Below are positions 8,246 through 29,143 of a stretch of DNA of 50,341 nucleotides, in pieces. The stretch is taken from the NCBI GenBank assembly GCA_020723345.1, contig DYJA01000044.1, forward strand, positions 1 through 50,341, read 5' to 3'. Below the pieces are notes generated by a model that was given only the letters and a program-made list of their open reading frames with translations, ran no database searches and was not told where the DNA came from. Position 1 is the stretch's first letter. Every line of letters begins with the position of its first letter. The DNA is from Candidatus Aquidulcis sp. (GTDB lineage Bacteria; Chloroflexota; Anaerolineae; UBA4142). A program made the position numbers and the translations under genes.

Positions 8246-8273
8246 TTGACAGTCCGCAAAATTGTGCTATAAT
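8246..8273 (+). promoter_or_regulatory. Near-consensus sigma-70 promoter of the molybdoenzyme/oxoacid oxidoreductase operon
   Basis: TTGACA at 8246-8251 and TATAAT at 8268-8273 are separated by 16 bases. Transcription would begin near 8280, just at the operator-like repeats. The same arrangement, including an AAAATTGTG spacer motif, recurs at 17130-17157. Confidence 0.75.
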
Positions 8274-8277
8274 ACAA

Positions 8278-8305
8278 TTGTAATTACAACATTACAACAT
8301 TACAT
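8278..8305. promoter_or_regulatory. Operator-like site: palindrome plus 8-base direct repeats
   Basis: TTGTAATTACAA (8278-8289) is a perfect 12-base palindrome. ATTACAAC is repeated in tandem at 8283-8290 and 8291-8298, with ATTACA continuing at 8299-8304. It overlaps the expected start of transcription, a position suited to repression. The palindrome has the GT-N4-AC outline common in GntR-family operators, and a GntR/UTRA gene lies at 28326-29111; the link is inference. Confidence 0.6.
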
Positions 8306-8382: not shown

Positions 8383-8625
8383 ATGTCAGTTCGAGTTGAT
8401 CTCAGCCCGATATTGAGAAGGAAATATCGCCCGGATTATGACCCCGACAAAGGGTTGATAGTCGACGATGGGGCAGGCAAAACTCTAAATCAGATCGTCC
8501 AAGGACTTGGCATACCACTTGACGAGGTAACCTCTGCTCTGGTCAACCACCACGTTGTGCAGCCAAGTTATATCGCAAAAGACGGTGACTGGATTCTGCT
8601 CACTGTCGCGATTAGCGGCGGTTGA
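8383..8625 (+). CDS. MoaD/ThiS-like ubiquitin-fold sulfur carrier
   Basis: 80 residues starting MSVRVDLSPILRRKY and ending in a C-terminal Gly-Gly (VAISGG), the feature of MoaD/ThiS proteins that carry sulfur as a thiocarboxylate for molybdopterin or thiamin synthesis. The frame is open 22 codons further to a GTG, but the ATG at 8383 gives the expected beta-grasp start. It is first in the operon before a molybdenum hydroxylase, so a role in making or sulfurating its pterin cofactor is likely. It is shorter in its conserved features than true MoaD, so the assignment is to the superfamily only. Confidence 0.65.
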   Translation: MSVRVDLSPILRRKYRPDYDPDKGLIVDDGAGKTLNQIVQGLGIPLDEVTSALVNHHVVQPSYIAKDGDWILLTVAISGG

Positions 8626-8677: not shown

Positions 8678-9199
8678 GTGCACAACATCGCAACGGACGT
8701 TGCTACACATTCGGTCGAGTCACTCACGCTATCCGACAACGTTATCCGGCTCATCATCAATGACGAGATCCACCAACTCCGTGTCGAGCCGGACTGGACG
8801 CTGCATTATCTCATCCACGACCGATTGGGACTGACCGGCACCAAGACGTTTTGCGACCGCGGAGCATGTGGGTCCTGCACCGTAATTCTGGATGGACGAC
8901 CGGTCCTCTCCTGTATGACGCTGGCGATCGAGTGTGACGGCAAGCGGGTCGAAACGATCGAAGGGATCGCGGCGAAACAACATCCGCTGATTGATACCTA
9001 CGTCAAACATCACGCGATGCAGTGCGGCTATTGTACGCCGGGCTTTATCGTGACTGCCAAGGCACTGCTCGACCGCAACCCAGACCCGACTGACGAGGAA
9101 ACCCGGCAAGCTCTGGCGGGCAACTTATGCCGGTGCGGCACTTATCCTCAGCATCCGACGGCGGTGCGGGAAGCGGCGCAAATCCTCAGGAAAGGGTGA
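8678..9199 (+). CDS. Xanthine-dehydrogenase-family [2Fe-2S] small subunit
   Basis: 173 residues from a GTG start with a strong GAGGAGG site at 8667-8673. Two [2Fe-2S] centres are visible: the plant-ferredoxin type with Cys59, 64, 67 and 79 (CDRGACGSC...LSC), and the C-terminal type with Cys116, 119, 151 and 153 (CGYC and CRC). This is the electron-transfer subunit of XDH/aldehyde oxidoreductase/CO-dehydrogenase-like molybdenum hydroxylases. An extra 20 residues precede the ferredoxin fold compared with typical members. The stop overlaps the start of the large subunit gene. Confidence 0.93.
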   Translation: MHNIATDVATHSVESLTLSDNVIRLIINDEIHQLRVEPDWTLHYLIHDRLGLTGTKTFCDRGACGSCTVILDGRPVLSCMTLAIECDGKRVETIEGIAAKQHPLIDTYVKHHAMQCGYCTPGFIVTAKALLDRNPDPTDEETRQALAGNLCRCGTYPQHPTAVREAAQILRKG

Positions 9200-11643
9200 T
9201 GACCATGGCGCAAGAATCGGAAACTCATTTACCAGGAAGTTATCAGCGTCTGCGAGCGGACGGACAATATCGCGTTGGTGCGGAACCGACGACGATCGCG
9301 TTCAATCACATCGGCAAGCGGGGTGAGCGGCGCGTGGATGGTTACGAGAAGGCAACCGGCAAAGCGCTTTACACGCGCGATATGGTGCTGCCGGGCATGT
9401 TATTCGCGCGGGTAATGCGCTGTCCGTACGCGCACGCCCGTATCAAGCAGATGGATACTCGCAGTGCCGAGGCGTTACCCGGCGTCAGAGCCATCATCCG
9501 CTACGATGACCCGGAGGTCAAGGGTCGCGCGCTCAACGGAAGCTATTTCGCGCAAGGGTGGGCGCGTCCAAAACTGGCTGGCTGGGCGCTCAAGCCGGTT
9601 CACCTAGTCCTGGCGGACGAGGGCTGGCATGAGGGTCAGCCGATGGGAGTCGTCATCGCCGCCGACACGGAAGCCATTGCCGAGCAGGCGTTGCGACTCG
9701 TCCGCGTCGAATGGGAAGAGCTGCCTTTCGTTCTCGACCAAGAAGATGCGCTCAAGCCGGATGCGCCCGTTTTGCGACCTGGGGCAACCAGCAATGAGAT
9801 TCACGACCCGCGCAAGACATTCAAGTTTGGCGATGTGGAGAAGGGCTTTCAGGAAGCCGACAGGGTCATTGAATTCCAAGCCCGACGGCGGGCGCACTTG
9901 TGGGCTGGCGCAGAAATGCCCAGCGTCTTGGTGCGCTGGCTCGACGGCAGGATGGAATTGTGGGTGCATGAGCAGCAGCCCTATCACGCCAAGCAGTTGC
10001 TGGCTGAATGGCTCGACATCGGCATGGATCAAATCACCATGAACACGGTCTATCAGGGGTGCTCGTTCGGGGGGCGCGGAAATCCCGCCAACCACTCTGA
10101 AAACGGCATGAACATTTTGGCGACCTTGCTATCCAAGAGAACGGGTCGCCCAATCAAAATGCTGTATGACCGGCGCGACACGTTTTTTGGCGAATCGGGC
10201 GACATCGCGACCAGCTACTTTAAGGTGGGCTTTAAGAACGATGGAACGATCACAGCCGTCCAGATGAAAAACATTTTCGCGGTGTACGTGGCTGCGACGG
10301 GCGTCGATCATCTGGTGGAGAATACCAAGATCCCCAACCTGTCTTGCGAGGCGATTCCGGTGGACGTGAGCATCGGACCCGCTTGGTGGGCGCGCTGTGA
10401 GCATTTACCCAGTTGCCTTTCCCTGACGCTGGTGTTCGATCATGTGGCGGCTGAACTGGGGATGGATCCCATCGAAGTGGCACTCAAGAACGACGGCAAC
10501 CACGGTCACGACGTAAGCTATCTCTTGCAATACATGCGCGAGCACGGCTTTCCAGAACGCGATAGTCTCAAAGAGTGCATTGAGATCGGCAAGCGCGCTA
10601 TCGGCTGGGACGAGAAATGGCATCAGCCCGGCGCGAGGAAATTGCCCAACGGCAAGTTGCACGGTATCGCGTTCACCTGGGATCACAACTGGGACGATTC
10701 GCGCGGCACCGGTTCCGCCGCGGTGATGATTGAAAACGACGGCTCGGTCAACATCATCGGGCAACACGTAGACATTGGACCGAATCCCTGGACGCCGCTC
10801 TGCCAGATTGTCGCCGACGAAATCGGTGTACCGTTTGAAAGCGTACACATCAAACCGTGGACGTTGGATACCGGCTTTGCGCTCATGTCGCCCGACGGTT
10901 CCGCAAACCTGGTCGCGAACGGCGCCATTGTCCGCAAGGCGGCTCAAAAGGCAAGGCGGATGCTGCTCGAATTAGCCGCCGAAGTGTTCGAGGTTGCTTG
11001 TCCCGAAGAACTCGACATTCAAAACGGCGCGATCTTTGTCAAAGCCGATCCCGGTCGAACCAAGACTATCCGGCAGGTCGTGACCAAAGCGATGCCGATG
11101 CACTGCTCGGGCGCATTTTGGACGCAGCCGCCTGTTCTCGCCTGGGCGTGGCATGCGCAAGGCATCTGGGGACAAGCCGACGAAACGGGACGACCGCGCC
11201 TGTGTCGTCAGGCGCACTTTATGGAAGTGGAGGTGGACCCCGACACCGGGCAGGTGGACGTGACCCGTGTGGTCAATGTCAACGACGTCGGCAAAGCCGT
11301 CTCGCCCGAAGCCGTCGAAGGGCAAATGTACGGCGGCACGATCCTGGGTGTGAGCCGGGGACTCATCGAAGAGATGGTTTGGGATCCGCGGACGGGCGTG
11401 CTGCTCAACGGCAACTTGCTGGACTACAAGTATGCCACCGCCCTCGACTGCGGTCCGATTGACACGTGCTTCATCGAGACAGGGTTGGGGCATGGACCGT
11501 ACGGAACATGCGGGATCGGCGAAGCAACCCCAACGATTATTCCCGCGCTGCTAAGTCCTGCGGTGTACAACGCGATTGGCAAATGGGTGGACGATTTTCC
11601 GATCACTCCCGAAAAAGTGCTGCAAGCGCTCGGTAAGATCTAG
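9199..11643 (+). CDS. Xanthine-dehydrogenase-family molybdopterin-binding large subunit
   Basis: 814 residues if begun at the ATG at 9199, which overlaps the previous stop; ATG 9205 is an alternative. The substrate-oxidising subunit binds molybdopterin-Mo. The motif QGCSFGGRG starts at residue 286, and the family's catalytic Glu lies in GIGEA at residue 775 near the C-terminus. Length and domain order (small N-terminal aldehyde-oxidase a/b domain, then two Mo-binding domains) are normal. The CO-dehydrogenase active-site loop is not evident, so an aldehyde or aromatic/heterocyclic hydroxylation substrate is more likely than CO. The exact substrate is unknown; the neighbours suggest an aldehyde from sugar cleavage. 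Confidence 0.92.
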   Translation: MTMAQESETHLPGSYQRLRADGQYRVGAEPTTIAFNHIGKRGERRVDGYEKATGKALYTRDMVLPGMLFARVMRCPYAHARIKQMDTRSAEALPGVRAIIRYDDPEVKGRALNGSYFAQGWARPKLAGWALKPVHLVLADEGWHEGQPMGVVIAADTEAIAEQALRLVRVEWEELPFVLDQEDALKPDAPVLRPGATSNEIHDPRKTFKFGDVEKGFQEADRVIEFQARRRAHLWAGAEMPSVLVRWLDGRMELWVHEQQPYHAKQLLAEWLDIGMDQITMNTVYQGCSFGGRGNPANHSENGMNILATLLSKRTGRPIKMLYDRRDTFFGESGDIATSYFKVGFKNDGTITAVQMKNIFAVYVAATGVDHLVENTKIPNLSCEAIPVDVSIGPAWWARCEHLPSCLSLTLVFDHVAAELGMDPIEVALKNDGNHGHDVSYLLQYMREHGFPERDSLKECIEIGKRAIGWDEKWHQPGARKLPNGKLHGIAFTWDHNWDDSRGTGSAAVMIENDGSVNIIGQHVDIGPNPWTPLCQIVADEIGVPFESVHIKPWTLDTGFALMSPDGSANLVANGAIVRKAAQKARRMLLELAAEVFEVACPEELDIQNGAIFVKADPGRTKTIRQVVTKAMPMHCSGAFWTQPPVLAWAWHAQGIWGQADETGRPRLCRQAHFMEVEVDPDTGQVDVTRVVNVNDVGKAVSPEAVEGQMYGGTILGVSRGLIEEMVWDPRTGVLLNGNLLDYKYATALDCGPIDTCFIETGLGHGPYGTCGIGEATPTIIPALLSPAVYNAIGKWVDDFPITPEKVLQALGKI

Positions 11644-11685: not shown

Positions 11686-14037
11686 ATGAGAAAGTTCAAA
11701 CACGTCAATGTTTCAACCATAGAAGAAGCGGTTTCAGCCCTTAGACAATCCGGGGAGACGGCGAAGGTCATTGCCGGCGGCACGGACTTGATTGGCGAGA
11801 TGAAGGACGACATATTGCCTCAATACCCGGAGGTACTCGTCAACCTCAAGACGATTCCGGGCTTGGAATATATTCAGACAGACGGCACTGGTCTCAAAAT
11901 CGGCGCGATGACTCGGCTTGAGGATATTGCCAAGGATCAGACCATCAAGAGAGAATATGCTGCTTTGGCAGAAGCGGCGCGCAGAGTGGCATCACCGCAC
12001 ATCAGAGAGATGGGCACGATCTCAGGAAACATCTGCCAAAACAATCGGTGCTGGTTCTACTGGGTGCAGGGTAACCGGTTCAACTGTATGCGGAAGGGTG
12101 GTCGGATCTGTTATGCGATAGCCCAGGAAGACAGATACCATTCTATATTTGGCGCTGCTGACGTAGGCAGTACGCCTTGCTCTTCGGATTGCCCCGCTCA
12201 TATTGATATTGCCGGCTATATGGAGAAAATCAGGGAAGGTGACATGACCGGGGCGGCTGAGATTCTTCTCGATTCCAACCCGATTCCGGCAATAACGGGT
12301 AGAATCTGTCCGCATTTCTGCGAAGAAGAGTGCAATCGGGGTGGACTTGACGAGGCGATTTCCATCCGATCGGTGGAGCGTGTTCTGGGGGATTACATTC
12401 TTGAGAATGTGGACAAGTTCATACACGCGCCTAAAGCGGGCGATAAAACGGTGGCGGTTGTTGGCTCTGGACCGGCGGGACTATCCGCTGCCTATTACCT
12501 TACGAAGACCGGATACAACGTGACTGTATTTGACCGAATGGAACAAGCCGGAGGTTTGTTGACCTACGGTATCCCAGGATACCGGCTCCCCAAGACGGTG
12601 GTCAAGAAGCAAATACAAGTTTTCGAAAGGGCGGGGATCAAATTCCAACTGAACGCCGCGCTCGGCAAGGAAATCACTGTAGCCGAACTGGCGCAAAGCT
12701 TCGACGCTGTCTTTATTGCCTGCGGCACGTGGAAAGAAAGAGCGGCTGGTGCAAAGGGCGAGCAAGCCATGACCTCCGGTTTACAGTTCCTGGTGGAAGT
12801 AAACTGCGGACGGGCGAAAGAGATGTCCGGCAAAAAAGTGGCGGTCATCGGAGGCGGCAACGTGGCGGTCGATGTGGCGCGCACATTGTTGAGACTGGGC
12901 GCTGAGCCGGTGATGATCTACCGCCGAACCGAGGCAGAAATACCGGCGATCAGAGAGGAAATCGAGAATGTCAAGCAAGAGAATATCAAGATCGAGTTCC
13001 TGACAACGCCTACGGAAGCAATTCGGAACGGCAACCAGGTCGCCCTCAAGTGCGTAAGGATGAAACTGGGTACTCCTGATGAGTCCGGGAGACCGCGACC
13101 TGTACCGATTGAAGGTTCAGACTTTATCATGGAATTTGACGCAGTTATGAAGGCGATTGGGGAAGGAGCGGACACTTCCTGTCTTCCAGCCGAATTTCTT
13201 GATCAGCAAGGACGTTTAGCGGTAGACCAAGCCACGTATTCCCTGGCGAAGAATGTCTTTGCCGGCGGTGATTTCGTCACCGGGGCGGCTACCGTGGTAG
13301 AGGCGATTGCCGCTGGCAGGAAAGCCGCCGGCTCGATAGACCAGTACCTCGGCGGTACAAAGAAAGAAAAAGTTGAGCATGTTGGCGCGCTGAAGACATT
13401 CAACAGTGCTTATCTCGAAAAGACAAACCGAGTGAAATCGCCGGAACGCTCCGTGGAGGAGAGGATCCACACTCTCGACGTTGAGGATATTGCATCAATA
13501 GAGATTGAGGGCGCGGAAGCAGAGGCAAACCGGTGCTTTAACTGTGGCTGCGTAGCCGTGAATCCGTCGGATGTCGCACCGGCGCTAGTCGCCCTGAATG
13601 CCACGATCAAGACAACCAAGCGGGTGATTGCAGCAGATGATTTTTTCATGGTGGGTCAAGACCGGACGACCGTTCTCGACGATGATGAGATCGTGACCGA
13701 GATTCAAATTCCCAAGCCGAGCGCGGATGCGAAGAGCGTCTTCATCAAATATGCGCTGAGAAAGTCAATAGATTTTCCGATCGTCAACTGCGCTCTGGTC
13801 GCGGAGATCACGGGCGGCAGTGTCAAGTCAGCGCGCATCTGTCTTAATTCGGTGTACAACAATCCTTATCGAGCGACCAAAGCTGAGGAGATGATTGCTG
13901 GCAAGGTGATCGACGAATCAACTGCCGAAACAGCCGGCAACGCTGCTGTCACTGATGTTTGCCCGGCGCTGAAGAGCCGATACAAAATACCAATCGCCAA
14001 GACATTGGTGAAAAGGGCATTGTTGGCTTGTAGGTGA
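11686..14037 (+). CDS. FAD/[4Fe-4S] subunit of a molybdenum hydroxylase with an inserted GltD-like NAD(P)H oxidoreductase
   Basis: 783 residues, far above the roughly 290 of a CoxM/XDH FAD subunit. Residues 1-155 are the N-terminal FAD-domain half (AGGTDLIGEMKD; TISGNICQNNRC), with Cys117, 122, 134 and 142 spaced like the extra [4Fe-4S] loop of 4-hydroxybenzoyl-CoA reductase beta. Residues about 160-620 are a GltD-like unit: a Cys-rich helical domain (CSSDCPAHIDIAGY, CPHFCEEEC), a GSGPAG dinucleotide site near 250-256, a second GGGNVAVDVA site near 386, and a closing CFNCGC at 617-622. The FAD domain then resumes (VNPSDVAPALVAL) to the end. GGAGGG upstream fixes the start. Electrons could pass between the Mo enzyme and NAD(P)H or ferredoxin. 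By eye the codon use is less GC-rich than the flanking genes. Confidence 0.85.
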   Translation: MRKFKHVNVSTIEEAVSALRQSGETAKVIAGGTDLIGEMKDDILPQYPEVLVNLKTIPGLEYIQTDGTGLKIGAMTRLEDIAKDQTIKREYAALAEAARRVASPHIREMGTISGNICQNNRCWFYWVQGNRFNCMRKGGRICYAIAQEDRYHSIFGAADVGSTPCSSDCPAHIDIAGYMEKIREGDMTGAAEILLDSNPIPAITGRICPHFCEEECNRGGLDEAISIRSVERVLGDYILENVDKFIHAPKAGDKTVAVVGSGPAGLSAAYYLTKTGYNVTVFDRMEQAGGLLTYGIPGYRLPKTVVKKQIQVFERAGIKFQLNAALGKEITVAELAQSFDAVFIACGTWKERAAGAKGEQAMTSGLQFLVEVNCGRAKEMSGKKVAVIGGGNVAVDVARTLLRLGAEPVMIYRRTEAEIPAIREEIENVKQENIKIEFLTTPTEAIRNGNQVALKCVRMKLGTPDESGRPRPVPIEGSDFIMEFDAVMKAIGEGADTSCLPAEFLDQQGRLAVDQATYSLAKNVFAGGDFVTGAATVVEAIAAGRKAAGSIDQYLGGTKKEKVEHVGALKTFNSAYLEKTNRVKSPERSVEERIHTLDVEDIASIEIEGAEAEANRCFNCGCVAVNPSDVAPALVALNATIKTTKRVIAADDFFMVGQDRTTVLDDDEIVTEIQIPKPSADAKSVFIKYALRKSIDFPIVNCALVAEITGGSVKSARICLNSVYNNPYRATKAEEMIAGKVIDESTAETAGNAAVTDVCPALKSRYKIPIAKTLVKRALLACR

Positions 14038-14092: not shown

Positions 14093-14977
14093 TTGAAAGA
14101 GATACGGCTTCATGGACGCGGTGGTCAGGGCGCGGTGCTGGCTGCTGAATTGATGGTTGTTGCCGCATTTGAAGACGGCAAGTATGGGCAAGCGTTTCCC
14201 GCGTTCGGCGGCGAGCGTCGGGGCGCACCGGTGCAGGCGTTCGTACGTTTGGATGCGCGCCCGGTGCGCGTGCGCTATCGCGTCAATCAGCCGGACCACG
14301 TCATCATCCTTGATCGAATGTTGCCGAATACGGTGGATGTGTTATCGGGTCTCAAGCCGGATGGACTCGCGTTTATGGACAGCGAAAAATCTCCGGCGAC
14401 TCTGCTCTGGTCTGTGGACGCTCCAGTGTATGCCGTTCCAGCTACACGCATCGCGCTTGAGGTGTTCGGTCAGCCGTTCGTCAACCCGGCGATGTTGGGC
14501 GCGTGGGCGGCAGTCACGCGCGAGGTCAGTTTGGAGGCAATCCAACGCGCGTACCAACATCGCTTCCCAGGTTCCCTGGGTGAAAAAAATAGTCGAGCCG
14601 CGCAGAAGGGCTATGATTTTATTCGCGCCGGAGCAACCCCGGTGCAGGTCAAGAAATCTGAGCAGACGCCGGGTGGTGTGATTAAATGGAATAGGGAGGA
14701 AGTCGCCGGCGTGCCGGGGCAGCCACTCCACTTTGCATCCGTCGTCGCGGCGCGCACCTCGTTGGCATACCCCACTGGCAGTTGGCGATATAGTCGCCCG
14801 GTGGTTGATCCCGCGGCGTGCAACGGCTGCGGCGTATGCGAGACGTTTTGCCCGGACAGCAGTCTGATGATCGTGGACAAGCAAGCGATCGTGGACTATG
14901 GATTCTGTAAGGGCTGCGGCATCTGCGCGGAAGAGTGCGCGCGCAACGCGATTCAGATGGTGATCGAGGAGGCGTGA
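14093..14977 (+). CDS. 2-oxoacid:ferredoxin oxidoreductase, fused gamma and delta subunits
   Basis: 294 residues from a TTG start supported by GGGAGAG at 14081-14087. Residues 1-185 form the gamma subunit (GRGGQGAVLAAELMV at the N-terminus). After a linker, the delta part carries two [4Fe-4S] motifs, CNGCGVCETFCP and CKGCGICAEECA, which pass electrons to ferredoxin. The four-domain pyruvate/2-ketoisovalerate type of enzyme oxidatively decarboxylates a 2-oxoacid to an acyl-CoA. Fusion of gamma and delta is known in the family. The second cluster ends ECA where many have ECP. The alpha gene starts 3 bases after the stop. Confidence 0.92.
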   Translation: MKEIRLHGRGGQGAVLAAELMVVAAFEDGKYGQAFPAFGGERRGAPVQAFVRLDARPVRVRYRVNQPDHVIILDRMLPNTVDVLSGLKPDGLAFMDSEKSPATLLWSVDAPVYAVPATRIALEVFGQPFVNPAMLGAWAAVTREVSLEAIQRAYQHRFPGSLGEKNSRAAQKGYDFIRAGATPVQVKKSEQTPGGVIKWNREEVAGVPGQPLHFASVVAARTSLAYPTGSWRYSRPVVDPAACNGCGVCETFCPDSSLMIVDKQAIVDYGFCKGCGICAEECARNAIQMVIEEA

Positions 14978-14980
14978 GAT

Positions 14981-16189
14981 ATGGCGCATGGCAAACTTTC
15001 CGTCATGGAAGGATCGATGGCAATCGCCCAGGCGATCAAGGCGTGCCGCCCCGACGTCGTCTCGGCTTACCCCATTACACCCCAGACGCACATTATCGAG
15101 TCCCTCGCGCAGATGGTCGCCAATGGCGAACTGGATGCCGAATATATTCGCGCGGATTCCGAATTTTCGGCGGCTTCGATTTTGGCTGGCGCAAGCGCGA
15201 CCGGGGTGCGCGCTTACACGGCATCGTCGTCGCAAGGATTACTCTTGATGACCGAGGTGATCTATTATCTCGCGCGCACTCGATTGCCGGTCGTGTTCAC
15301 CGGGGCGAATCGTCAGGTCACCGCGCCAATCGGTTTGCAGCCCGATCATCAGGATACGATGAGTTTTCGTGATGCGGGCATCATCGAGTTGTATGTCGAA
15401 GATGTGCAAGAGGCATACGATACGCATTTGCAAGCATTCAAAATCGCCGAGGATCACGATGTTCTGTTGCCGGTCATGGTGTGCGTGGATGGCTTTGTCC
15501 TGACGCATGTGTACGAACCAGTCAAAACTTTCGAGCAAGCCGATGTGGATGCGTTCCTGCCACCGTACGATCCTGCGCATTATATGACGCCTGAAAAGCC
15601 GATGGTGTTCGGTTCCGGCACCGACGACTTGAACACGATGGAATTTCATTACATGAATCATCAGGCAGTGTTGCGCGCCAGGGACAAGATCGAAGCGGTG
15701 GCGCGCGAGTATGAAGCGATGTTCGGTCATTATCACGGCGGCTTGATTGACACGTACGCCACCGAGGATGCAGAAGTGATCCTCGTGGCGATGGGTTCTG
15801 TGATCGGCACACTGCGCGAAGCAGTAGATATCTTGCGTGGCGAAGGCGTCAAGGTGGGCTTGATCAAAGTACGCAGCTTCCGCCCGTTCCCAACCGAAGC
15901 GCTGAAACAAGCCGTCGGTCGCGCGGGCGCAGTGGCAGTCTTCGATCGCGCGCTCTCATTCGGATTTCAAGGTGTGCTTGCGACCGACGTCAAGACGGCG
16001 CTCTACGACGCGCCACATCGTCCGCTGGTGTTGGGTTTGATGGCTGGCTTTGGCGGGCGCGAAGTCAACCTGGACACGGTGCGCGAAATCGTTCAGCGCG
16101 CTCGGCGCGCGTTAGACGCCGGTCGCGTTCCGCACGAGGCGGAATTCATCGGCTTGAAGACCGAGACGCTGCCGCAAGTTTTCGTATGA
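14981..16189 (+). CDS. porA: 2-oxoacid:ferredoxin oxidoreductase alpha subunit
   Basis: 402 residues. The N-terminal pyrimidine-binding-like domain shows YPITPQTHIIE and the block ADSEFSAASILAGASATGVRAYTASSS, typical of alpha subunits that help bind thiamin diphosphate; the C-terminal domain (GLIKVRSFRPFP) corresponds to the transketolase-C part. It acts with the gamma-delta and beta proteins to oxidise pyruvate or a similar 2-oxoacid with CoA. The stop overlaps the ATGA at the start of the beta gene. Pyruvate is the default guess, but residues that would fix specificity cannot be judged by eye. Confidence 0.92.
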   Translation: MAHGKLSVMEGSMAIAQAIKACRPDVVSAYPITPQTHIIESLAQMVANGELDAEYIRADSEFSAASILAGASATGVRAYTASSSQGLLLMTEVIYYLARTRLPVVFTGANRQVTAPIGLQPDHQDTMSFRDAGIIELYVEDVQEAYDTHLQAFKIAEDHDVLLPVMVCVDGFVLTHVYEPVKTFEQADVDAFLPPYDPAHYMTPEKPMVFGSGTDDLNTMEFHYMNHQAVLRARDKIEAVAREYEAMFGHYHGGLIDTYATEDAEVILVAMGSVIGTLREAVDILRGEGVKVGLIKVRSFRPFPTEALKQAVGRAGAVAVFDRALSFGFQGVLATDVKTALYDAPHRPLVLGLMAGFGGREVNLDTVREIVQRARRALDAGRVPHEAEFIGLKTETLPQVFV

Positions 16190-16197
16190 GGTATGTC

Positions 16198-17127
16198 ATG
16201 GATGAAAGCATCATAAGCAAGTACGATGAAATGTTGTTCACGCCGGGGCACCGCGCCTGCCCAGGTTGCGGCGCTTCGATTGCGGTGCGCGCAATCTTGG
16301 AAGCGACGGGACCGGATGTGATCGTGGTCAGTCCGACGGGATGTGTGGAAACTTTTACCGCCCAATATCCCTACTCGCCTTGGGGCGTGCCGTGGTTGCA
16401 CGTTCTGTTCGAGAATGCCGCCGCGGTCGCGTCGGGCGTCGAAGCAGCGCTCAAAAAGCGCGGTCTAGCCGACAAAGTCAAGGTCATCGTCATTGGCGGC
16501 GATGGCGGCACGCACGACATTGGCTTGGGCGCACTCTCCGGGATGATGGAGCGCGGTCACAACGTAACCTATATCTGTTACGACAACGAAGCATACATGA
16601 ACACGGGCGTGCAACGTTCCAGCGCCACGCCGATGGGCGCATCAACGATGACCAGCCCGGCAGGCACGCTGGCTTGGGGCAAGGAGCAGCCCAAGAAAAA
16701 TCTGCCCGCCATCGCATTGGCGCACGGCATCCCTTATGTTGCGACGGCTTCGATTGCGTTTCCGAAAGACCTGACCCGCAAGGTGAAACAAGCCCTGGCG
16801 ATCAAAGGTCCGAAATACATCGAGGTACACAGTCCATGCCCGATCGGGTGGGGCTTCGACGCGGCGCAGACTATCGAGATCGCCCGGCTTGCCGTCCAGA
16901 CGGGTCTCGTGCCGCTTTACGAAGTCAGCGAAGACCAGCCACTCCAAGTCCGCAAGTTACCCAAGCGCGTGCCAGTTGTCGAGTATCTACGACTCCAAAG
17001 GCGCTTCCGTCACCTCTTTGAGGCGGAAGGCAGACAGGCATACCTGAATCTCATTCAGGCAATCGCCGATGAAAACGTAATTCGCTACAAATTGGGTGAG
17101 CAAAACAGTGAAATTGACCAAAATTGA
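16198..17127 (+). CDS. porB: 2-oxoacid:ferredoxin oxidoreductase beta subunit
   Basis: 309 residues from ATG 16198, chosen because GAGG at 16188-16191 is well spaced; ATG 16186 in the same frame overlaps the alpha stop and is an alternative. The thiamin diphosphate motif GGDGGTHDIGLGAL followed by YDNEAYMNTG is clear. Four Cys that can hold the proximal [4Fe-4S] cluster are seen in CPGCG, the later TGCVE and HSPCPIGWGF. The last codons run up to the -35 box of the next promoter at 17130. This is the final gene of the first operon. Confidence 0.92.
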   Translation: MDESIISKYDEMLFTPGHRACPGCGASIAVRAILEATGPDVIVVSPTGCVETFTAQYPYSPWGVPWLHVLFENAAAVASGVEAALKKRGLADKVKVIVIGGDGGTHDIGLGALSGMMERGHNVTYICYDNEAYMNTGVQRSSATPMGASTMTSPAGTLAWGKEQPKKNLPAIALAHGIPYVATASIAFPKDLTRKVKQALAIKGPKYIEVHSPCPIGWGFDAAQTIEIARLAVQTGLVPLYEVSEDQPLQVRKLPKRVPVVEYLRLQRRFRHLFEAEGRQAYLNLIQAIADENVIRYKLGEQNSEIDQN

Positions 17128-17129: not shown

Positions 17130-17157
17130 TTGACAAAGGCAAAAATTGTGTTATATT
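17130..17157 (+). promoter_or_regulatory. Promoter of the transporter/sugar-catabolic operon
   Basis: TTGACA at 17130-17135 and TATATT at 17152-17157 are 16 bases apart, and the spacer carries AAAAATTGTG just before the -10, nearly as at 8246-8273. The -35 begins three bases after the porB stop codon. Confidence 0.7.
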
Positions 17158-17169
17158 TATAAGTAGTAA

Positions 17170-17195
17170 TGTAATTACAACACTACAACACGACC
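17170..17195. promoter_or_regulatory. Second copy of the operator-like site
   Basis: TGTAATTACA (17170-17179) is a perfect 10-base palindrome and is followed by the tandem units ATTACAAC (17174-17181), ACTACAAC (17182-17189) and a decayed third unit ACGACC. The layout relative to the -10 box resembles that at 8278, so both operons are probably controlled by the same protein. Confidence 0.55.
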
Positions 17196-17633
17196 TATTT
17201 ATTGACGTGTACAGTGACAGCCATTGGGGAGGTGCGCGGAAAACCACGAGATATAAAAGACTTTCGACAATAATTTTGGACACTGATAAACACAGATGCA
17301 CACAGATTGAAAACCTAGAGATCAGTGTTAATCAGTGTTAATCTGTGTCAAAATTCTGGATTGGGTTTATTTCCGATAATGTCTAAACTTTGACACGTTG
17401 GGCAGATTGAGCAAGGTCAAAGTCGGGTCATTCTGGATAACCCACTTTCGTCTGGGCGCAGTCAAGCAATGAGTCTTGCCGCGAATTGACTTTGCAAATC
17501 GCTTGTGAAGCATGTCATCCTCTGCGCGCGGAGGAGGGCTGAAGAAGGAGGTGCAGCCAAAACAGATTACTCAATGTGCTCGCTGCATAACTATTGTGAA
17601 TCAACTGTCACCAACTTTTCAAGGAGGAGAAGC
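17196..17633 (+). other. Long untranslated leader before the binding-protein gene
   Basis: About 470 bases separate the predicted transcription start from the ATG at 17634. It holds a palindromic repeat (17274-17355) and then about 280 bases with no frame I can defend. Purine-rich GAGGAGG and AAGGAGG stretches occur at about 17529-17535 and 17547-17553 without an evident gene behind them. No riboswitch class was recognised. Confidence 0.4.
17274..17355. repeat. Dispersed palindromic repeat (ggacactgat.../...atctgtgtc family), copy 1
   Basis: The left part carries ggacactgataaacacag and the right part atcagtgttaatctgtgtc; outer edges attttg/caaaatt are also complementary. A related copy lies at 29540-29609, so this is a repeat family and not a site specific to this operon. 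Confidence 0.6.
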
Positions 17634-19070
17634 ATGAGAAGAAAAATGTTGAGCATCATAGCAATGCTCATCTTGTTCTCTGTCTTGGCGGCATGCACGA
17701 CGCCAACACAGGCGCCTGCGCCAACGCAAGCCCCCGCAGCTGTACAACCGACCCAACCGCCCGCCGCAGGCGGCTGCAAAGATTCGGATCGCGTGCCGAT
17801 TTCCTGGTCAACCATCGCAGGGTTCTATACCGACGCGATGACCTCGATCATCAAAGATTTCGAATCAAAGAACTGCGTCAAGGTTACTATCGTCGGTATT
17901 GACAACGCGCAACTCTACGACAAGCAAATCATCGAAGCGGTTGGCAAGACCGGCGCGTATGACGTGTACAACATCGAAACAGCCGAAAAAGCTGGCTTTG
18001 CCGAAAATGGCTACATTCTCCCGATGGATGATTATATCAAAGCCAACGCCGACAAAGTTCAGTACGATGACATCGCGCCGATTTTGGCTGACGTGACCAC
18101 CAAGTACAAGGGCAAGACCTGGGGCTTGCCGTACTACACCTACACCCAGGGGCAATTCTATCGCGCCGACCTGTTTGAGGATGCGACCGAGATGGCTGCC
18201 TTCAAGACCAAGTTCGGCTATGACCTCAAGCCGCCTACGACCTGGGATCAGATGAAAGATGTTGCCCAATTCTTTACCCGCAAAAAGGGCGAGATGCTCA
18301 AGGGCAAGCCGCTGGACAAGGACTTTTACGGCATCGGCTTGATGGCAGGTCGTTTCCAAGAAATCCAGGATGAGCTTTCGGGCATGATCTTGTCCAAGGG
18401 TACCGATTGGCTCAAGGACGATGGCACGATTGCCGTCAAGGACGATGGCAACTTGTGGGCGCTCAAGTTCTATGTTGAAAAGTTGCTCCCCTACGCCCCT
18501 CCGGCGGCGCTGACCGTCACCTATGACGGCGTGATGAACCAGATGCAAGACTGCCAGATCGCCATGACCGCCAATTTCTTCCTGGATCAGTGGCCGAACG
18601 CAGCCAACACCGAGAAAAAGTGCCCTGGCGCCAAAATGGCAATCGGCGTCGGCATCGAAAAAACCACCTACATCGGCGCGTTCCTGATGGGTGTTTCCTC
18701 CAGCTCCAAGCACCCCAAGGAAGCTATGGACTTTGTCGCTTATATGGGTGGAAAGGAAGCGCAGACCAAGTTCGCGTCCCTGGGCGGCTCGACAACCCGC
18801 ATCAGCGTCTTGAAAGATCCCCAATTCAACACGCCTGAGAGCCGCACCAAAACTGCCCAATTTGCCTTCCTGCTGCAAGTCTTTGACAACATGAAGACCA
18901 AGAAATCGAACCTGTTCTACAGCCCTTATGGCGCCAAGCTCTACAACGCGATGGGCCCAATCTACCACACTGCCGCCGCGAAGGAAAAGACCCCGGAGCA
19001 GGCGCTCCAAACCCTGTACGACGAGTTTGTCAAGATCTGCGGCGGGCCCAAGTGCGCTGTGAACAAGTAG
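17634..19070 (+). CDS. Sugar-type ABC transporter substrate-binding lipoprotein
   Basis: 478 residues, an extracytoplasmic binding protein of the CUT1/MalE type. AAGGAGGAG ends a few bases before ATG 17634. The signal sequence MRRKMLSIIAML leads to a lipobox LAAC with the lipidated Cys at residue 21, followed by a Thr/Pro/Gln-rich linker. The mature part has the aromatic-rich blocks GLPYYTYTQGQFY and TWDQMKDVAQF and the later GVSSSSKHPKEAMDFVAYM typical of type I sugar-binding proteins. It should deliver an oligosaccharide, sugar or polyol to the permeases encoded next. The ligand cannot be named from sequence. Confidence 0.92.
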   Translation: MRRKMLSIIAMLILFSVLAACTTPTQAPAPTQAPAAVQPTQPPAAGGCKDSDRVPISWSTIAGFYTDAMTSIIKDFESKNCVKVTIVGIDNAQLYDKQIIEAVGKTGAYDVYNIETAEKAGFAENGYILPMDDYIKANADKVQYDDIAPILADVTTKYKGKTWGLPYYTYTQGQFYRADLFEDATEMAAFKTKFGYDLKPPTTWDQMKDVAQFFTRKKGEMLKGKPLDKDFYGIGLMAGRFQEIQDELSGMILSKGTDWLKDDGTIAVKDDGNLWALKFYVEKLLPYAPPAALTVTYDGVMNQMQDCQIAMTANFFLDQWPNAANTEKKCPGAKMAIGVGIEKTTYIGAFLMGVSSSSKHPKEAMDFVAYMGGKEAQTKFASLGGSTTRISVLKDPQFNTPESRTKTAQFAFLLQVFDNMKTKKSNLFYSPYGAKLYNAMGPIYHTAAAKEKTPEQALQTLYDEFVKICGGPKCAVNK

Positions 19071-19087
19071 GAATGACGTTCTGAGTC

Positions 19088-19117
19088 GGTTGGGGCTTGG
19101 CTGGCTAGGCCCCAACC
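19088..19117 (+). other. Hairpin between binding-protein and permease genes
   Basis: GGTTGGGGC (19088-19096) pairs with GCCCCAACC (19109-19117) around a 12-base loop, without a T run. In CUT1 operons such hairpins after the binding-protein gene commonly stabilise its mRNA or lower read-through, giving more binding protein than permease; that role is inferred here. Confidence 0.55.
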
Positions 19118-19160
19118 CTCCATGTTGCTGCAATGCAGTCTGCCCCGTAGGGAGAAAAAG

Positions 19161-20096
19161 ATGGAAACAGCAGCGATCAAGAACCCAGGTCCCGTACAAG
19201 CCCGGAGAACCATGTCCGATACATGGTACTCGATACTGCTCATTGCCCCGGCGATGATCATTATCCTGTTCTTTGCCCTCGTGCCGCTCTTTTATGCGAT
19301 TGATGTCTCGTTCCGCCAGGCGGACCTGACGATGGGGGGCATACAAGGGTTTGTGGGACTGAGAAACTATCGAACGGTGCTGCACGAGCCGTACTTTTGG
19401 CAGTCCGTTGGGACGACGGTCGTGTTCACCTTTTTTGCGATTGTGATCGAGATGGGTCTAGGTATCTTTGTTGCGTTTCTGATCCACGGCGCCACCGTGG
19501 GCAAGGGATTGATTCGAAGCTTGGTGATTCTGCCGTTGGCGACTGCGCCATCCGTCACCGGGCTTTTTTGGAGATACCTGTATGACACCCAGTTTGGGCT
19601 CTACAACTATTTCTTGAGTGTGTTGGGATTACCTTGGCAACCCAACTGGCTGGGTGACATTAAACTCGGCTTGTGGAGTGTGATCATCTTTGATGTCTGG
19701 TTGTGGATGCCCTTTGTCGCCTTGATCGTTTTGGCGGGTCTGCAATCGCTGCCCAAGGAGCCGTTCGAAGCCGCCGAACTAGATGGCGCGTCCAATTTTC
19801 GGGTCTTGCGCACGCTCACGTTCCCGATGCTAACGCCAGTGCTCATGCTGGTCTTTGTCCTGCGGACGATTGACTGTCTACGTCTGTATGATAGTGTAGC
19901 CACGTTAACACGAGGTGGACCTGGATCGGTCACAGAAACCGTGACTTATTTTCTCTATCGCCAGGGTCTGGTGTTCTTCCGCATGGACTATGCCTCGACC
20001 ATGGCACTATTGTTCATGTACGCCGTGATCCTCGCCAGCGGCTATGCGCTGCGACCATTGCTTGCCCGGCTCGCCATGCGCGCGGGTCAACGATAA
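19161..20096 (+). CDS. Sugar ABC transporter permease, MalF type
   Basis: 311 residues beginning at ATG 19161 with AGGGAGAA upstream. Six membrane segments are readable, from SILLIAPAMIIILFFALVPLF near residue 25 to the last one ending ALRPLLARLA. The EAA motif that docks on the ATPase is present as FEAAELDGASNFRVLRTLTFP. The N-terminus (METAAIKNPGPVQARR) is a short cytoplasmic tail. It forms the pore with the MalG-type protein encoded 12 bases downstream. Confidence 0.92.
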   Translation: METAAIKNPGPVQARRTMSDTWYSILLIAPAMIIILFFALVPLFYAIDVSFRQADLTMGGIQGFVGLRNYRTVLHEPYFWQSVGTTVVFTFFAIVIEMGLGIFVAFLIHGATVGKGLIRSLVILPLATAPSVTGLFWRYLYDTQFGLYNYFLSVLGLPWQPNWLGDIKLGLWSVIIFDVWLWMPFVALIVLAGLQSLPKEPFEAAELDGASNFRVLRTLTFPMLTPVLMLVFVLRTIDCLRLYDSVATLTRGGPGSVTETVTYFLYRQGLVFFRMDYASTMALLFMYAVILASGYALRPLLARLAMRAGQR

Positions 20097-20108
20097 GGAG
20101 ATCCGAAC

Positions 20109-20969
20109 ATGCTTCAACAACGAAGTTCAACCCCCATCGAGATTTTGCGGTACGCCCTCATCGTGGTCATCTTGACGGCGTCGCTCTTTCCGATTGCCTG
20201 GCTGATCATCACGTCCTTCAAGCCCGCCGACGATATCATGGTATCGCCGCCCCGGTTCATTTTCACGCCGACGTTGGACAACTATACTTATGCGCTCCAC
20301 AAAGCCAACTTTATGCACTTTATCCAAAACACGCTGTACGTGGCTGTGGTGTCTACGGTGTTCGTGATTGTGTTGAGCTCTCTCGCCTCTTATAGCTTTG
20401 CCCGCTACAACCCCGGCGGCGGCAACATCCTGTTCTTTATCCTGACGACGAAAATGTTCCCGGCGATCGCAGTTGTCCTGCCCTACTTTCTCATCTTCAA
20501 AGAGATCGGCGACACTGCCGTTGGCAAAGCCCTCGGTATCGGTCTGGATCGACCGGGCGCGTTAATCGTCAGTTACACCATGTTCAACTTGCCGTTTGCG
20601 ATTTGGTTGATGGTGTCCTTTTTCCAGGACATCCCGCGCGAACTGGAGGACTCGGCTCGGCTGGATGGTTATAACCGACTGCAGGTGCTGTGGCGGGTGG
20701 TGTTGCCGTTAGCCGCCCCCGGCATCGCCGTCACGGCCATCTTTTGCCTGCTCTTTTCCTGGAACGAGTTCCTGTTTGCCTACATCCTGACCCGAGATGC
20801 CGCCCGCACCATCACCGTTGGCGTCGAGTCCTTCTTTACCCTGCGCGGAATTCTGTGGGGCCCGGTGGCGGCTGCCGCGACGATCAGCGTTGCGCCGATG
20901 CTGGTCTTTGTCCTGATCTTGCAGCGGTACATGGTGCGCGGGCTGACCTTTGGCGCGGTCCGAGGATAA
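20109..20969 (+). CDS. Sugar ABC transporter permease, MalG type
   Basis: 286 residues with six membrane segments and the N-terminal feature SLFPIAWLIITSFKP typical of MalG-type permeases. The EAA loop reads EDSARLDGYNRLQVLWRVVLP. AAGGAG precedes the ATG. One loop (KEIGDTAVGKALGIGLDRPG) is somewhat long for the family. It partners the MalF-type permease and is followed after 15 bases by a small membrane protein. Confidence 0.92.
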   Translation: MLQQRSSTPIEILRYALIVVILTASLFPIAWLIITSFKPADDIMVSPPRFIFTPTLDNYTYALHKANFMHFIQNTLYVAVVSTVFVIVLSSLASYSFARYNPGGGNILFFILTTKMFPAIAVVLPYFLIFKEIGDTAVGKALGIGLDRPGALIVSYTMFNLPFAIWLMVSFFQDIPRELEDSARLDGYNRLQVLWRVVLPLAAPGIAVTAIFCLLFSWNEFLFAYILTRDAARTITVGVESFFTLRGILWGPVAAAATISVAPMLVFVLILQRYMVRGLTFGAVRG

Positions 20970-20984
20970 TCAGAAGGAGTCACT

Positions 20985-21251
20985 ATGCTGACCTTTCCTA
21001 TCATTTGGGATCTCAGTTTTTCGGCTTTTCAAATGTTTGTCGGTGTCGGGATCATCTGGATGCTCTTTATCGAGCCGCATATCCCATCCAGGGATCTGTC
21101 GGTCACACTGATGATCATCGTCGCCATCGCGGCAGCGGCGCTCAGCTTTTACCTGGGCTTGAGCAAGGTTCGCCGAGAGTGGGATACTGCTCAAAAGCAG
21201 ATAACCGCGAGCGAGTCAGCCGCCGTTGAATACGAAGGTGAGATAGCATGA
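20985..21251 (+). CDS. Small two-helix membrane protein of the importer operon (GlpU-like position)
   Basis: 88 residues with two hydrophobic segments (about 5-29 and 38-60) and a charged C-terminal tail (KVRREWDTAQKQ). AAGGAG upstream and an ATGA overlap with the next ATPase gene show that it is a real member of the operon. A small membrane protein alongside two permeases and two different ATPases is the composition of the glycerol importer GlpSTPQUV of rhizobia, where GlpU occupies this role. Sequence homology to GlpU is only suspected. Its function is unknown; it may stabilise or regulate the permease. Confidence 0.7.
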   Translation: MLTFPIIWDLSFSAFQMFVGVGIIWMLFIEPHIPSRDLSVTLMIIVAIAAAALSFYLGLSKVRREWDTAQKQITASESAAVEYEGEIA

Positions 21252-22390
21252 TCGAACTACGCAACGTCACTAAACGCTATGGTCTTTCGACTTTCGGGGT
21301 CAGAGATCTCAACTTTGAGGTGCGCGACCAAGAATTCCTCGTGATCTATGGACCCTCGGGCGCTGGCAAGAGCACCACGCTCAAACTCCTCGCCGGCATC
21401 ATCCAGCCGACTGCGGGGGATCTGGTGCGCGATGGCGAGTCGCTGCTCAAGGTCGCCCCGGAAAGCCGCGATATGGCGATGGCGTTTGAAAATTATGCCC
21501 TCTATTCCCACATGTCGGTCTACGAGAACCTGGCGTTTCCGCTGCGCGCCAAAAAGATGACCAAGCAAGAGATCGACGAGCGGGTGCAACGAACGGCGCG
21601 GATGTTACAGATCAGCGATCTGTTGGATCGGCGACCTGGGTTCCTGAGCGGCGGGCAACGTCAGCGCGTCGCGCTGGGTCGCGCGATCATTCGCCCCGCC
21701 AGTCTCTACCTGCTCGATGAGCCGATTGGTCACCTGGATGCCAAGCTGCGTCACCGGATGCGCGGCGAACTCAAAGCCATGTCCGTTGACTTACGGGCAA
21801 CGATCGTGCTCGTAACGACGGCTTCCCGCGAGGCGCTGGCACTGGGCGATCGCATCGCCATTCTCCGGGAAGGTCACCTGCAACAGATCGGCACGCCCAA
21901 CGAAGTCTATTATCAGCCGGCGAACGAGTTTGTCGCCTCGTTTGTCGGAGAGCCGCCGATGAGCTTTCTAGGCATCGAGCCAACCAGCGAAAACGGGCAG
22001 CTGTATTTTAATATGCAAGACTGCGCCTCCCGTTTGCGCGTGCCGCCGCAACTGGCGCAACACCTCAATGGGGAAACCGCCGGTTACCGGCTCGGCGTCC
22101 GGGCTTCTGAGATAACCGTCGCTCAACAGCAAGATGCTGGGCATTGCGTTCCTGGGCAGGTCTTTATCATCGAGCAGATGGGGTACTGCAACATTATCTC
22201 CGCCAAAGTCGGGAATGGCTTGGTCAGAGTCGTAACCGACTCGACCGTCACGGCAAAGCGGAACGAAACGATCTGGCTTTCTCTGGATGCGGAGCACATG
22301 CATCTATTCTATCAGCACAAAGCCATCTGTCATCCCACTCGCTTTGTGGACGAGGGAAGAGCAAATGCCGCCGGGATGAATGCGAGGTAA
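21248..22390 (+). CDS. ABC transporter ATPase 1 (MalK/UgpC-like) with altered Q- and H-loops
   Basis: 380 residues. Walker A GPSGAGKST is at 35-43, signature LSGGQ at 133-137 and Walker B LLDEP with catalytic Glu158. Two usual catalytic-site residues differ: the Q-loop position is Glu81 (AFENYALY) and the H-loop reads VTTAS, placing Thr191 where the switch His is expected. The C-terminal regulatory TOBE-like domain is complete (VRASEITVAQQ...). The second ATPase gene follows two bases later and keeps its H-loop His, so the two subunits probably form a heterodimer with one weakened site. Note the Cys/His-containing tail after residue 355. Confidence 0.9.
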   Translation: MIELRNVTKRYGLSTFGVRDLNFEVRDQEFLVIYGPSGAGKSTTLKLLAGIIQPTAGDLVRDGESLLKVAPESRDMAMAFENYALYSHMSVYENLAFPLRAKKMTKQEIDERVQRTARMLQISDLLDRRPGFLSGGQRQRVALGRAIIRPASLYLLDEPIGHLDAKLRHRMRGELKAMSVDLRATIVLVTTASREALALGDRIAILREGHLQQIGTPNEVYYQPANEFVASFVGEPPMSFLGIEPTSENGQLYFNMQDCASRLRVPPQLAQHLNGETAGYRLGVRASEITVAQQQDAGHCVPGQVFIIEQMGYCNIISAKVGNGLVRVVTDSTVTAKRNETIWLSLDAEHMHLFYQHKAICHPTRFVDEGRANAAGMNAR

Positions 22391-22392
22391 AA

Positions 22393-23514
22393 GTGGCAAC
22401 GATCACTTTGGAAAACGTCTCCAAGACTTATGCGGGTAACGTCGAAGCGGTCCGCAACATCAATTTCGAGGTCAAGAACGGCGAGTTTGTCGCCCTGCTG
22501 GGTCCGTCTGGCTGCGGCAAATCCTCGACGATGCGGATGATCGCCGGGCTGGAGGAAATTACCGGCGGCACGATTTACTTTGACGGCAAGCCGGTGAATA
22601 GACTTCGTCCGCGTGATCGCAAAGTGGCGATGGCTTTTGAAACGTATGCCTTGTATCCGACATTGACCGTCTATGAAAACCTGGCTTTCCCGCTCCGGTC
22701 GGCTGGCTGGTCACAAGCCCAGGTGGATGCCAAAGTCCAGGAGTTTGCCCGACTGCTTGAGCTCACTCGCTTGCTCCACCGGATGCCGGGCGAGTTGAGC
22801 GGCGGTCAGGCACAACGCATCGGCTTGGCGCGCGCGCTCGTTCGCGAGCCGGCGGTCTTTTTGCTGGATGAGCCGATCTCGCACCTGGATACGCGCCAGC
22901 GCTTTCGAATGCGCCAGATCATCAAGCGGCTGCACCTTGAAAAAGGGTACACGATGATCTATGTGACCCACGACCAAGAGGAAGCCATGGCGATGGCGGA
23001 TCGGATCGTGGTGATGCACGAAGGTGTAATTCGGCAGATCGGCGCGTCGACCGAGATCTATCGCGACCCGGCGGATGATTTTGTCGCGGGCTTTGTGGGT
23101 GAGCCGCCCATGAACTTTCTTGAAGGCGCTCCCAATCTCTGCGATGGGGCGTGGATGTTCCGCTCCGGCGACCGGCAATTCCCGTTCCCGAACTGGCTGC
23201 AATCGCACGGAGACAAGTTGCCCGCCGCGCTCAAGATGGGCATCCGCCCCTACGATGTCAGTGTGAGTCTGGATAGCAGCGCGCCCTGCGACGCCAAGGG
23301 CGAGGTCTTTGTCTGCGAAAACATGTGCGACTATAGCGTTGTGACGGTCGATATGGCTGATGTGCGGTTCCAGGCGGTGACGCCGCCTTCTTTCAGCGCC
23401 AATCGCCACCAACCCGTTTCCCTCAAGTTCGATCCAACGTTTATGCGGTTCTTTGACAAGTCAACGGGCAAAGCGATCCAGGTGTCAACGAATGTCCAAC
23501 GAATAAACGAATAA
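22393..23514 (+). CDS. ABC transporter ATPase 2 (MalK/UgpC-like)
   Basis: 373 residues from a GTG with GAGG five bases upstream. Walker A GPSGCGKSS at 37-45, LSGGQ at 135-139, Walker B FLLDEP with Glu160 and the H-loop His193 (VTHDQEEAM) are canonical, but the Q-loop residue is Glu83 (AFETYALYP), the same change as in ATPase 1. A TOBE-like C-terminal domain follows. The last residues (STNVQRINE) and the stop codon are encoded by the left arm of a palindromic repeat at 23486-23568, so the original C-terminus has been replaced or extended. It powers the CUT1-type importer with ATPase 1. Confidence 0.9.
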   Translation: MATITLENVSKTYAGNVEAVRNINFEVKNGEFVALLGPSGCGKSSTMRMIAGLEEITGGTIYFDGKPVNRLRPRDRKVAMAFETYALYPTLTVYENLAFPLRSAGWSQAQVDAKVQEFARLLELTRLLHRMPGELSGGQAQRIGLARALVREPAVFLLDEPISHLDTRQRFRMRQIIKRLHLEKGYTMIYVTHDQEEAMAMADRIVVMHEGVIRQIGASTEIYRDPADDFVAGFVGEPPMNFLEGAPNLCDGAWMFRSGDRQFPFPNWLQSHGDKLPAALKMGIRPYDVSVSLDSSAPCDAKGEVFVCENMCDYSVVTVDMADVRFQAVTPPSFSANRHQPVSLKFDPTFMRFFDKSTGKAIQVSTNVQRINE

Positions 23515-23568
23515 ACAAATGAAATCCCCCTGCACACGACGTTCGTTTATTCGTTCCGTCATTCGTTG
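23486..23568. repeat. Palindromic repeat overlapping the ATPase 2 gene end
   Basis: The left arm (23486-23512, caacgaatg...) and right arm (23541-23568, ...cattcgttg) are complementary at about 24 of 27 positions. The left arm lies inside the ATPase reading frame and supplies its stop codon TAA at 23512-23514 or immediately beside it. Confidence 0.65.
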
Positions 23569-23584
23569 ATGAGGTGATACCAGC

Positions 23585-24733: not shown

Positions 24734-24736
24734 CCC

Positions 24737-26248: not shown

Positions 26249-26266
26249 GACCTGCGGAGGGCAACG

Positions 26267-27208: not shown

Positions 27209-27259
27209 GAGAATCTCGACCAATGGGTCAGTTCCTCCGCTCATATTTTGGAGACCATG

Positions 27260-28240: not shown

Positions 28241-28325
28241 ACCATGAAAAAGCCAGAACAAATATGCCGAGACCGTCCGTCGAGCGCGACAAAAGCACAT
28301 CTCACAATGAGGGGGAATTAGAACT

Positions 28326-29111: not shown

Positions 29112-29143
29112 GCACTCCCGATTCTCTCACGGAGGAAGCCCGG

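Follow-up and report, generated by a model that had tools for sequence, protein, structure and literature searches.

A GltD/NfnB-type oxidoreductase module nested within the FAD subunit of a predicted molybdenum hydroxylase, with a probable role in linking the Mo site to NAD(P)(H)

The window considered here, a stretch of 50,341 nucleotides from Candidatus Aquidulcis sp. (contig DYJA01000044.1), encodes a molybdenum hydroxylase whose flavin subunit appears to contain a second oxidoreductase. This raises the question of whether the arrangement is real and where the electrons of the Mo site would then go. The nested gene, M, is an open reading frame at 11686-14037 on the forward strand and encodes 783 residues. 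In the preliminary description, a GltD-like unit was said to interrupt a CoxM-like FAD subunit at about residue 160, the latter resuming at about 622. A domain search with the 783-residue protein bore out both the position and the order: Pfam returned FAD_binding_5 (3-120), Fer4_20 (162-240), Pyr_redox_2 (255-544), FAD_binding_5 again, and CO_deh_flav_C (688-780), with scores of the main domains all far over the gathering cut-offs, and among the NCBIfam models those of GltD type covered residues 163-623 while those of CoxM/HcrB type covered both outer parts. The gene consists of the following parts:

11686..12045, forward strand: first part of FAD_binding_5, residues 1-120 (Pfam 3-120), with invariant G31, G32, T33, and G114
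12046..12156, forward strand: HcrB/PaoB-like Fe-S loop with C122, C134, C142, and H152 (from conservation and alignment to the HcrB and PaoB loops)
12157..13551, forward strand: inserted GltD/NfnB-type module, residues 158-622 (Fer4_20, Pyr_redox_2; Z 46.2 to NfnA 9bov_A)
13552..14037, forward strand: remainder of FAD_binding_5 and CO_deh_flav_C, residues 623-783 (Pfam), packed in the model against residues 1-157 in the manner of 1rm6_B

M is the FAD subunit of a Mo hydroxylase: both of its domains score above the curated cut-offs, the FAD motifs are present, and the genes of the small (S) and large (L) subunits adjoin it. The insert is a GltD/NfnB-type module, with Fer4_20 and Pyr_redox_2, two nucleotide sites (one for FAD, one for NAD(P)H), eight Fe-S ligands, and a CxxCGC motif at its C-terminal end.

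The AlphaFold2 model of M, built from 28 aligned sequences, had a mean pLDDT of 87.8 and a pTM of 0.82. Among the matches listed by Foldseek, only the GltD part was represented; further structural alignment gave the FAD part. Three FAD subunits were superimposed on the two outer pieces together, each spanning model residues 1-783: the aldehyde oxidase subunit 5y6q_B (Z 38.6, rmsd 1.9 A, 316 residues), HcrB 1rm6_B (Z 37.5, rmsd 1.9 A, 305/323 residues), and PaoB 5g5g_B (Z 35.8, 305/316 residues). The fit of the aldehyde oxidase subunits to the model is thus no worse than that of HcrB. All three share with M the whole outer domain, the FAD motifs, and the position of the Cys loop; however, with about 316-330 residues they have no inserted module. 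The inner part matched NfnA 9bov_A (rmsd 2.6 A over 451 residues, model 158-621) and StnC 8oh5_C (Z 45.5). The halves of the FAD domain, whose failure to pack would have spoken against nesting, thus pack together in the predicted structure, and the structure-based limits of the insertion (158 and 621-622) agree with those proposed. The model indicates with good confidence that the two outer pieces form one complete FAD domain and that the insert is a complete module; domain order and predicted structure alike point to a clean insertion and not to an end-to-end fusion.

Homologues were sought with a degenerate DNA pattern of the second junction (C..CG....P.D.APAL) across 84,980 species, each represented by a single genome. 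The pattern occurred in 53 stretches, 44 of which encode homologues by BLASTP, whereas the other nine (the viral contig L070, L033, and seven others) had none at E 1e-20. Near-full-length homologues with an identical nested order and 40-66% identity were encoded in 31 of the 44, a count that is a lower bound because the junction pattern was exact. They are distributed over six phyla, the holders being Bacillota (22), Chloroflexota, Actinomycetota, Acidobacteriota, Synergistota, and one Bathyarchaeon; the cultivable Sporobacter termitidis is among the carriers of the nested gene. On the tree, the window M groups with Dehalococcoidia, an actinobacterium, and the Bathyarchaeon. In the majority of homologous loci of sufficient extent, S and/or L genes adjoin the nested one. 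Since the homologues have the same junctions and S/L neighbours, the nested gene is a conserved family and not a chimera. A whole NAD(P)H-Fe-S module is therefore found inserted inside, rather than fused to, the flavin subunit of Mo hydroxylases in bacteria and archaea of no fewer than six phyla. Because the junctions are constant, a single origin of the insertion would be the simplest reading. One homologue (L047, 2191-4920) has about 130 additional residues, for the most part Gly, Ala, Asn, and Ser, between the module and the last Cys motif.

The assembly consists of 132 contigs and the gene is absent from the same-genus and same-family genomes tested, both of which would suit an artefact of assembly or gene calling; nevertheless, 31 independent homologues with identical junctions exclude a chimera for the gene itself and leave such an artefact a practically negligible probability. 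The nested gene was missing from all near relatives tested (same genus, same family), a close PorA was likewise missing from near relatives, and a further full-length copy was found neither in a same-phylum sample of 301 genomes nor in 60 relatives. Plasmids gave matches to the GltD part only. A protein scan of the genome contig collection with the window M gave no match, probably because the short peptide patterns were too specific. A remnant of a DDE transposase lies directly upstream of the Mo-enzyme operon (window 7358-7684); together with the lack of the nested gene and of a close PorA in the relatives, it would fit a recent acquisition. A less likely alternative is wrong binning, by which the contig as a whole might have been misplaced in this genome.

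Conservation of candidate cofactor ligands was counted in 32 sequences, that is, the window M and the 31 near-full-length homologues. In the loop, C122, C134, and H152 were present in 32/32 sequences and C142 in 31/32. The extra Cys loop that had been likened to that of 4-hydroxybenzoyl-CoA reductase thus exists as regards these three Cys, but no Cys corresponds in position to the fourth one of HcrB: Cys155 of HcrB aligns with Tyr151 of M, and the invariant His152, which aligns with a PaoB His, stands one residue on. M therefore resembles PaoB in this position and does not have Cys at the four positions of an HcrB-type loop. The loop may nevertheless bind a cluster. Within the module, C165, C169, C208, C212, C216, C617, C620, and C622 were invariant (32/32), and so were H210 at its front, E231, and R300. 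By alignment to NfnB of P. furiosus, the ligands expected for two [4Fe-4S] clusters are C617, C620, C165, C169, C208, C212, C216, and E231, an assignment counted on the printed alignment, in which the C617/C620 pair aligns weakly to the NfnB N-terminus. The CxxC pair and the extra C622 sit at the point of return into the FAD domain, near the end of the insertion at which the HcrB-like loop lies. We infer that a chain of clusters joins the two flavins of M.

Among characterised modules, StnC is structurally closest to the insert. The GltD-like N-terminal parts of NfnA in NfnABC (9bov, 9n5u) and StnC in StnABC (8oh5) have the fold of the M module and share its FAD and NAD(P) sites, its Fe-S ligands, and a CxxCGC motif at the C-terminal end of the module. 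However, their module is attached to a NuoG-like part and cooperates with a bifurcating unit of HydBC type (StnABC; PMC10482914), whereas that of M lies inside a FAD subunit. In addition, the proximal cluster has a Lys ligand in StnC (K170), while Glu (E231) occupies this place in all 32 M sequences, so that the Lys ligand of the StnC/NfnABC type was found in none. NfnB (NfnL) of NfnAB shares the module fold, the Arg at the flavin N5, and the Glu at the proximal cluster, but its CxxC pair is N-terminal instead of C-terminal, and no NfnA partner was seen beside M. In E. coli, related parts (the GltD-like YgfK, the FAD protein YgfM, and the Mo protein XdhD) are encoded together as separate proteins, and YgfK itself is a yanthine reductase (PMC12507026); the YgfK model TIGR03315 was not reached by M (317.7 bits against 835.3). 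These proteins, the Stn system (PMC10482914), AadN (PMC9973337), and the Sulfolobus enzymes (PMC4726530) are the closest systems found, and searches of open-licence PMC papers for the nested architecture or its parts gave no description of it.

The genes surrounding M bear on both the electron path and the substrate. They and their control regions are as follows:

8246..8299, forward strand: promoter-like TTGACA-16-TATAAT, then a 22-base putative operator, TTGTAATTACAACATTACAACA, at 8278-8299
8383..8625, forward strand: MoaD/ThiS-like sulfur carrier with a Gly-Gly end (Ub-Mut7C, E 2.6e-6; C-terminal ISGG; ORF listed from GTG 8317)
8678..9199, forward strand: small subunit S with two [2Fe-2S] motifs (Fer2_2, E 6.9e-28)
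9199..11643, forward strand: large molybdopterin subunit L (MoCoBD_1, MoCoBD_2, Ald_Xan_dh_C)
14093..14977, forward strand: PorCD, fused gamma and delta subunits of a 2-oxoacid:ferredoxin oxidoreductase (POR, Fer4; TIGR02175 and TIGR02179 above cut-off)
14981..16189, forward strand: PorA, alpha subunit of pyruvate:ferredoxin oxidoreductase type (closest solved chain 9bt4_B, 410 bits)
16186..17127, forward strand: PorB, beta subunit (TPP_enzyme_C; NF008819 392.5 bits, cut-off 405)
17130..17190, forward strand: second promoter and copy of the putative operator (17169-17190), before the sugar-acid operon
17505..39038, forward strand: adjacent sugar-acid operon sharing the operator (context)

The genes from the MoaD-like protein through S, L, M, PorCD, and PorA to PorB lie no more than about 55 bases apart or overlap; the ORF of L is listed from 9127, and an ATG at 9199 overlaps the stop of S. 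The Mo-enzyme genes and those of the oxidoreductase (POR) thus form one probable operon. By its PorA/B/C/D composition, POR is assigned as a pyruvate:ferredoxin oxidoreductase, its substrate being putative.

The invariant ligands and the conserved neighbourhood make it quite probable that M serves as a wire by which electrons pass between the Mo site and NAD(P)(H). Here we infer the cofactor content, electron path, direction, coenzyme, and substrate of the S-L-M complex. The GltD/NfnB-type NAD(P)H:Fe-S oxidoreductase module is inserted just behind the Fe-S loop of the FAD subunit itself. Electrons would pass from the Mo site in L through the two [2Fe-2S] clusters of S to the FAD of the outer domain, then to the loop cluster (C122, C134, and C142 with H152 or C622), and over the two [4Fe-4S] clusters of the module to the second FAD and NAD(P)(H); ferredoxin might be an additional partner. 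The transfer of Mo-site electrons to NAD(P)H, as had been proposed for this protein, is the natural reading, although a predicted one. Concerning the coenzyme, YRR closes the second nucleotide-binding strand in the window M and its nearest kin; the same holds for the NADP(H)-using NfnB and StnC (PMC10482914). In place of YRR, CLE is found in most clostridial members (M residues about 412-423), which suggests use of NAD(H); the difference splits the family and may mark the two coenzymes. If the electron path is correct, the Mo hydroxylases of anaerobes gain a built-in Fe-S link to NAD(P)(H), and the nested subunit makes the electron acceptor of Mo-dependent aldehyde oxidation testable.

As in NfnB, the module flavin might instead split or join electrons among NAD(P)H, ferredoxin, and the Mo-side chain. 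Such a Mo hydroxylase would bifurcate by itself, dividing Mo-site electrons between ferredoxin and NAD(P)+ or joining them in reverse, and would constitute a bifurcating enzyme of a new class. The oxidation of an aldehyde has a potential low enough to proceed without bifurcation. R300 stands at the place of R201 of NfnB and E231 at that of the NfnB Glu binding the proximal cluster, both invariant, and three partners are available in principle. However, no NfnA or HydBC homologue was seen in the window unit or the neighbours examined; an NfnA partner was found neither in the window operon nor among the neighbours scanned in other loci. StnC, with the identical C-terminal Cys arrangement, keeps the Arg, yet its GltD-like part is reported to have lost bifurcation and to pass electrons to a HydBC-like unit (PMC10482914). 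It appears that the two residues do not decide the question and that the absence of a partner beside the gene speaks against bifurcation; the suggestion, also made in the preliminary description, found no positive support and is very improbable.

The best curated models for S were those of glyceraldehyde dehydrogenase gamma and HcrC, both under the cut-off. The whole of L scored best against the HcrA model (315.2 bits, cut-off 994.55) and the XdhA model (314 bits), below all cut-offs, and aldehyde oxidases were not best; for residues 330-560, however, the best matches were the aldehyde oxidases 5y6q_C and PaoC. L retains the catalytic Glu motif GIGE. Its structure model had a pLDDT of 68 and was left out of the structural comparison. 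Two specific identities were discarded on curated cut-offs. For 4-hydroxybenzoyl-CoA reductase, hinted at in the preliminary description by a likeness of the loop only, all three subunits remained far below the curated cut-offs (TIGR03193/4/5: 149.3/257.8, 315.2/994.55, and 156.2/404.55 bits). The glyceraldehyde dehydrogenase models NF041018-NF041020 were likewise not reached (231.6/790, 155.8/350, and 165.9/290 bits). A cysteine of L in an RCE motif recalls the Cu-binding Cys of CO dehydrogenase, but this stretch aligns best to aldehyde oxidases.

In the control regions, the promoter match was 12/12 at 8246-8273 and 11/12 at 17130-17157, and a nearly identical 22-base element follows each. 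The local alignment of the two promoter-operators scored 31, whereas none of 1000 shuffles exceeded 22. With up to three mismatches, the 22-mer occurred at two places only in the 6.34 Mb genome (the reversed control pattern gave one match). The second operon encodes a sugar-type importer, lactonase-like, gluconokinase-like, KDG-aldolase-like, and KDG-kinase-like proteins, a GntR/UTRA regulator (28326-29111), SucCD-like proteins, a tungsten-type AFOR, and dehydrogenases. Because of this gene content and the promoter-operator common to both, the two operons probably constitute one sugar-acid regulon.

Since the operator is common only to the Mo-enzyme and sugar-acid operons, aldehyde oxidation in a sugar-acid pathway is our preferred function, with the chances for it about even. 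The window complex would then run mainly outward: the aldehyde left by the aldolase of the sugar-acid operon would be oxidised at the Mo site with reduction of NADP+, and the co-encoded POR would dispose of pyruvate. The nearness of the middle of L to aldehyde oxidases and the KDG-aldolase-like, KDG-kinase-like, and AFOR genes support this function. Against it, the tungsten AFOR of the same operon could oxidise the aldehyde, the whole L is nearest to HcrA/XdhA, sugar operons do not adjoin the nearest homologues, POR adjoins none of the enlarged loci, and the near relatives tested do not have the gene. The Mo-dependent glyceraldehyde oxidoreductase of Sulfolobus (4zoh) has the same S-L-M subunits and the context of a non-phosphorylating sugar pathway, but unlike M no inserted module; with the Sulfolobus enzymes, NAD+, NADP+, and ferredoxin failed as acceptors, and the physiological acceptor is not known (PMC4726530). 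Overall, an M that links the Mo site of an S-L-M hydroxylase to NAD(P)(H) in an aldehyde/sugar-acid role is the best explanation and a moderately probable one.

It is less likely, although it deserves consideration, that the complex runs inward as a reductase, with NAD(P)H and/or ferredoxin reduced by POR reducing a substrate at the Mo site, for example by reductive dehydroxylation as in 4-hydroxybenzoyl-CoA reductase or E. coli XdhD-YgfM. The HcrB-like loop of M would suit this, such a loop being associated with inverted electron flow in 4-hydroxybenzoyl-CoA reductase according to the title of a structure paper cited in PMC3958847; however, it is equally the loop of PaoB-type aldehyde oxidoreductases. 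The POR genes begin 55 bases behind M, and there are precedents in the feeding of ferredoxin to benzoyl-CoA reductase by KorAB in Thauera (PMC9973337) and the reduction of uric acid by XdhD (PMC12507026). In many clostridial members, moreover, the Mo subunit is without the catalytic Glu, but the window L retains GIGE and scores 315 against the HcrA cut-off of 994.55, and the co-regulated neighbour genes point to an oxidative use of sugar acids.

The XdhA score of L, level with that of HcrA, could also suggest a xanthine-dehydrogenase-like enzyme of purines or N-heterocycles that lies beside the sugar operon by chance, and a homologue (L089) is flanked by a tryptophanase-family gene and an amidohydrolase. 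This is improbable, as the unique operator is common to the sugar-acid operon and no purine genes were recognised among the window proteins scanned.

Aldehyde oxidation, if correct for the window complex, need not extend to its kin. Beside the nearest homologues stand TRAP transporter genes and others rather than sugar operons; the neighbours of others include TRAP transporters, XdhC, glycyl-radical enzymes, and a tryptophanase-family gene, and POR adjoins the nested gene in none of the 20 enlarged loci. Because POR and the other neighbours vary among loci, the substrate probably differs among family members, and a general electron module is the best description of the nested subunit; it appears to be a modular part serving several kinds of Mo subunits. 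Clostridial L proteins, e.g., L079 6991-9375, L084 2972-5377, and L087 5032-7431, have GISHS in place of GxGE; they seem to lack the usual active-site Glu, and their chemistry may differ.

Several further observations were made at these loci. Glycyl radical enzymes of the PFL2/glycerol-dehydratase type are encoded near the nested-subunit Mo enzymes in L084 (5389-7848) and L087 (8206-10680); they score below the cut-offs of named members. In L089 (4312-12805), a tryptophanase-family gene, S, L, the nested M, and an Amidohydro_3 gene stand in a row, which could suggest a pathway of indole or phenol. In the window itself, genes of hydantoinase A and B, followed by those of a dipeptide-type importer, are located at 518-4440.
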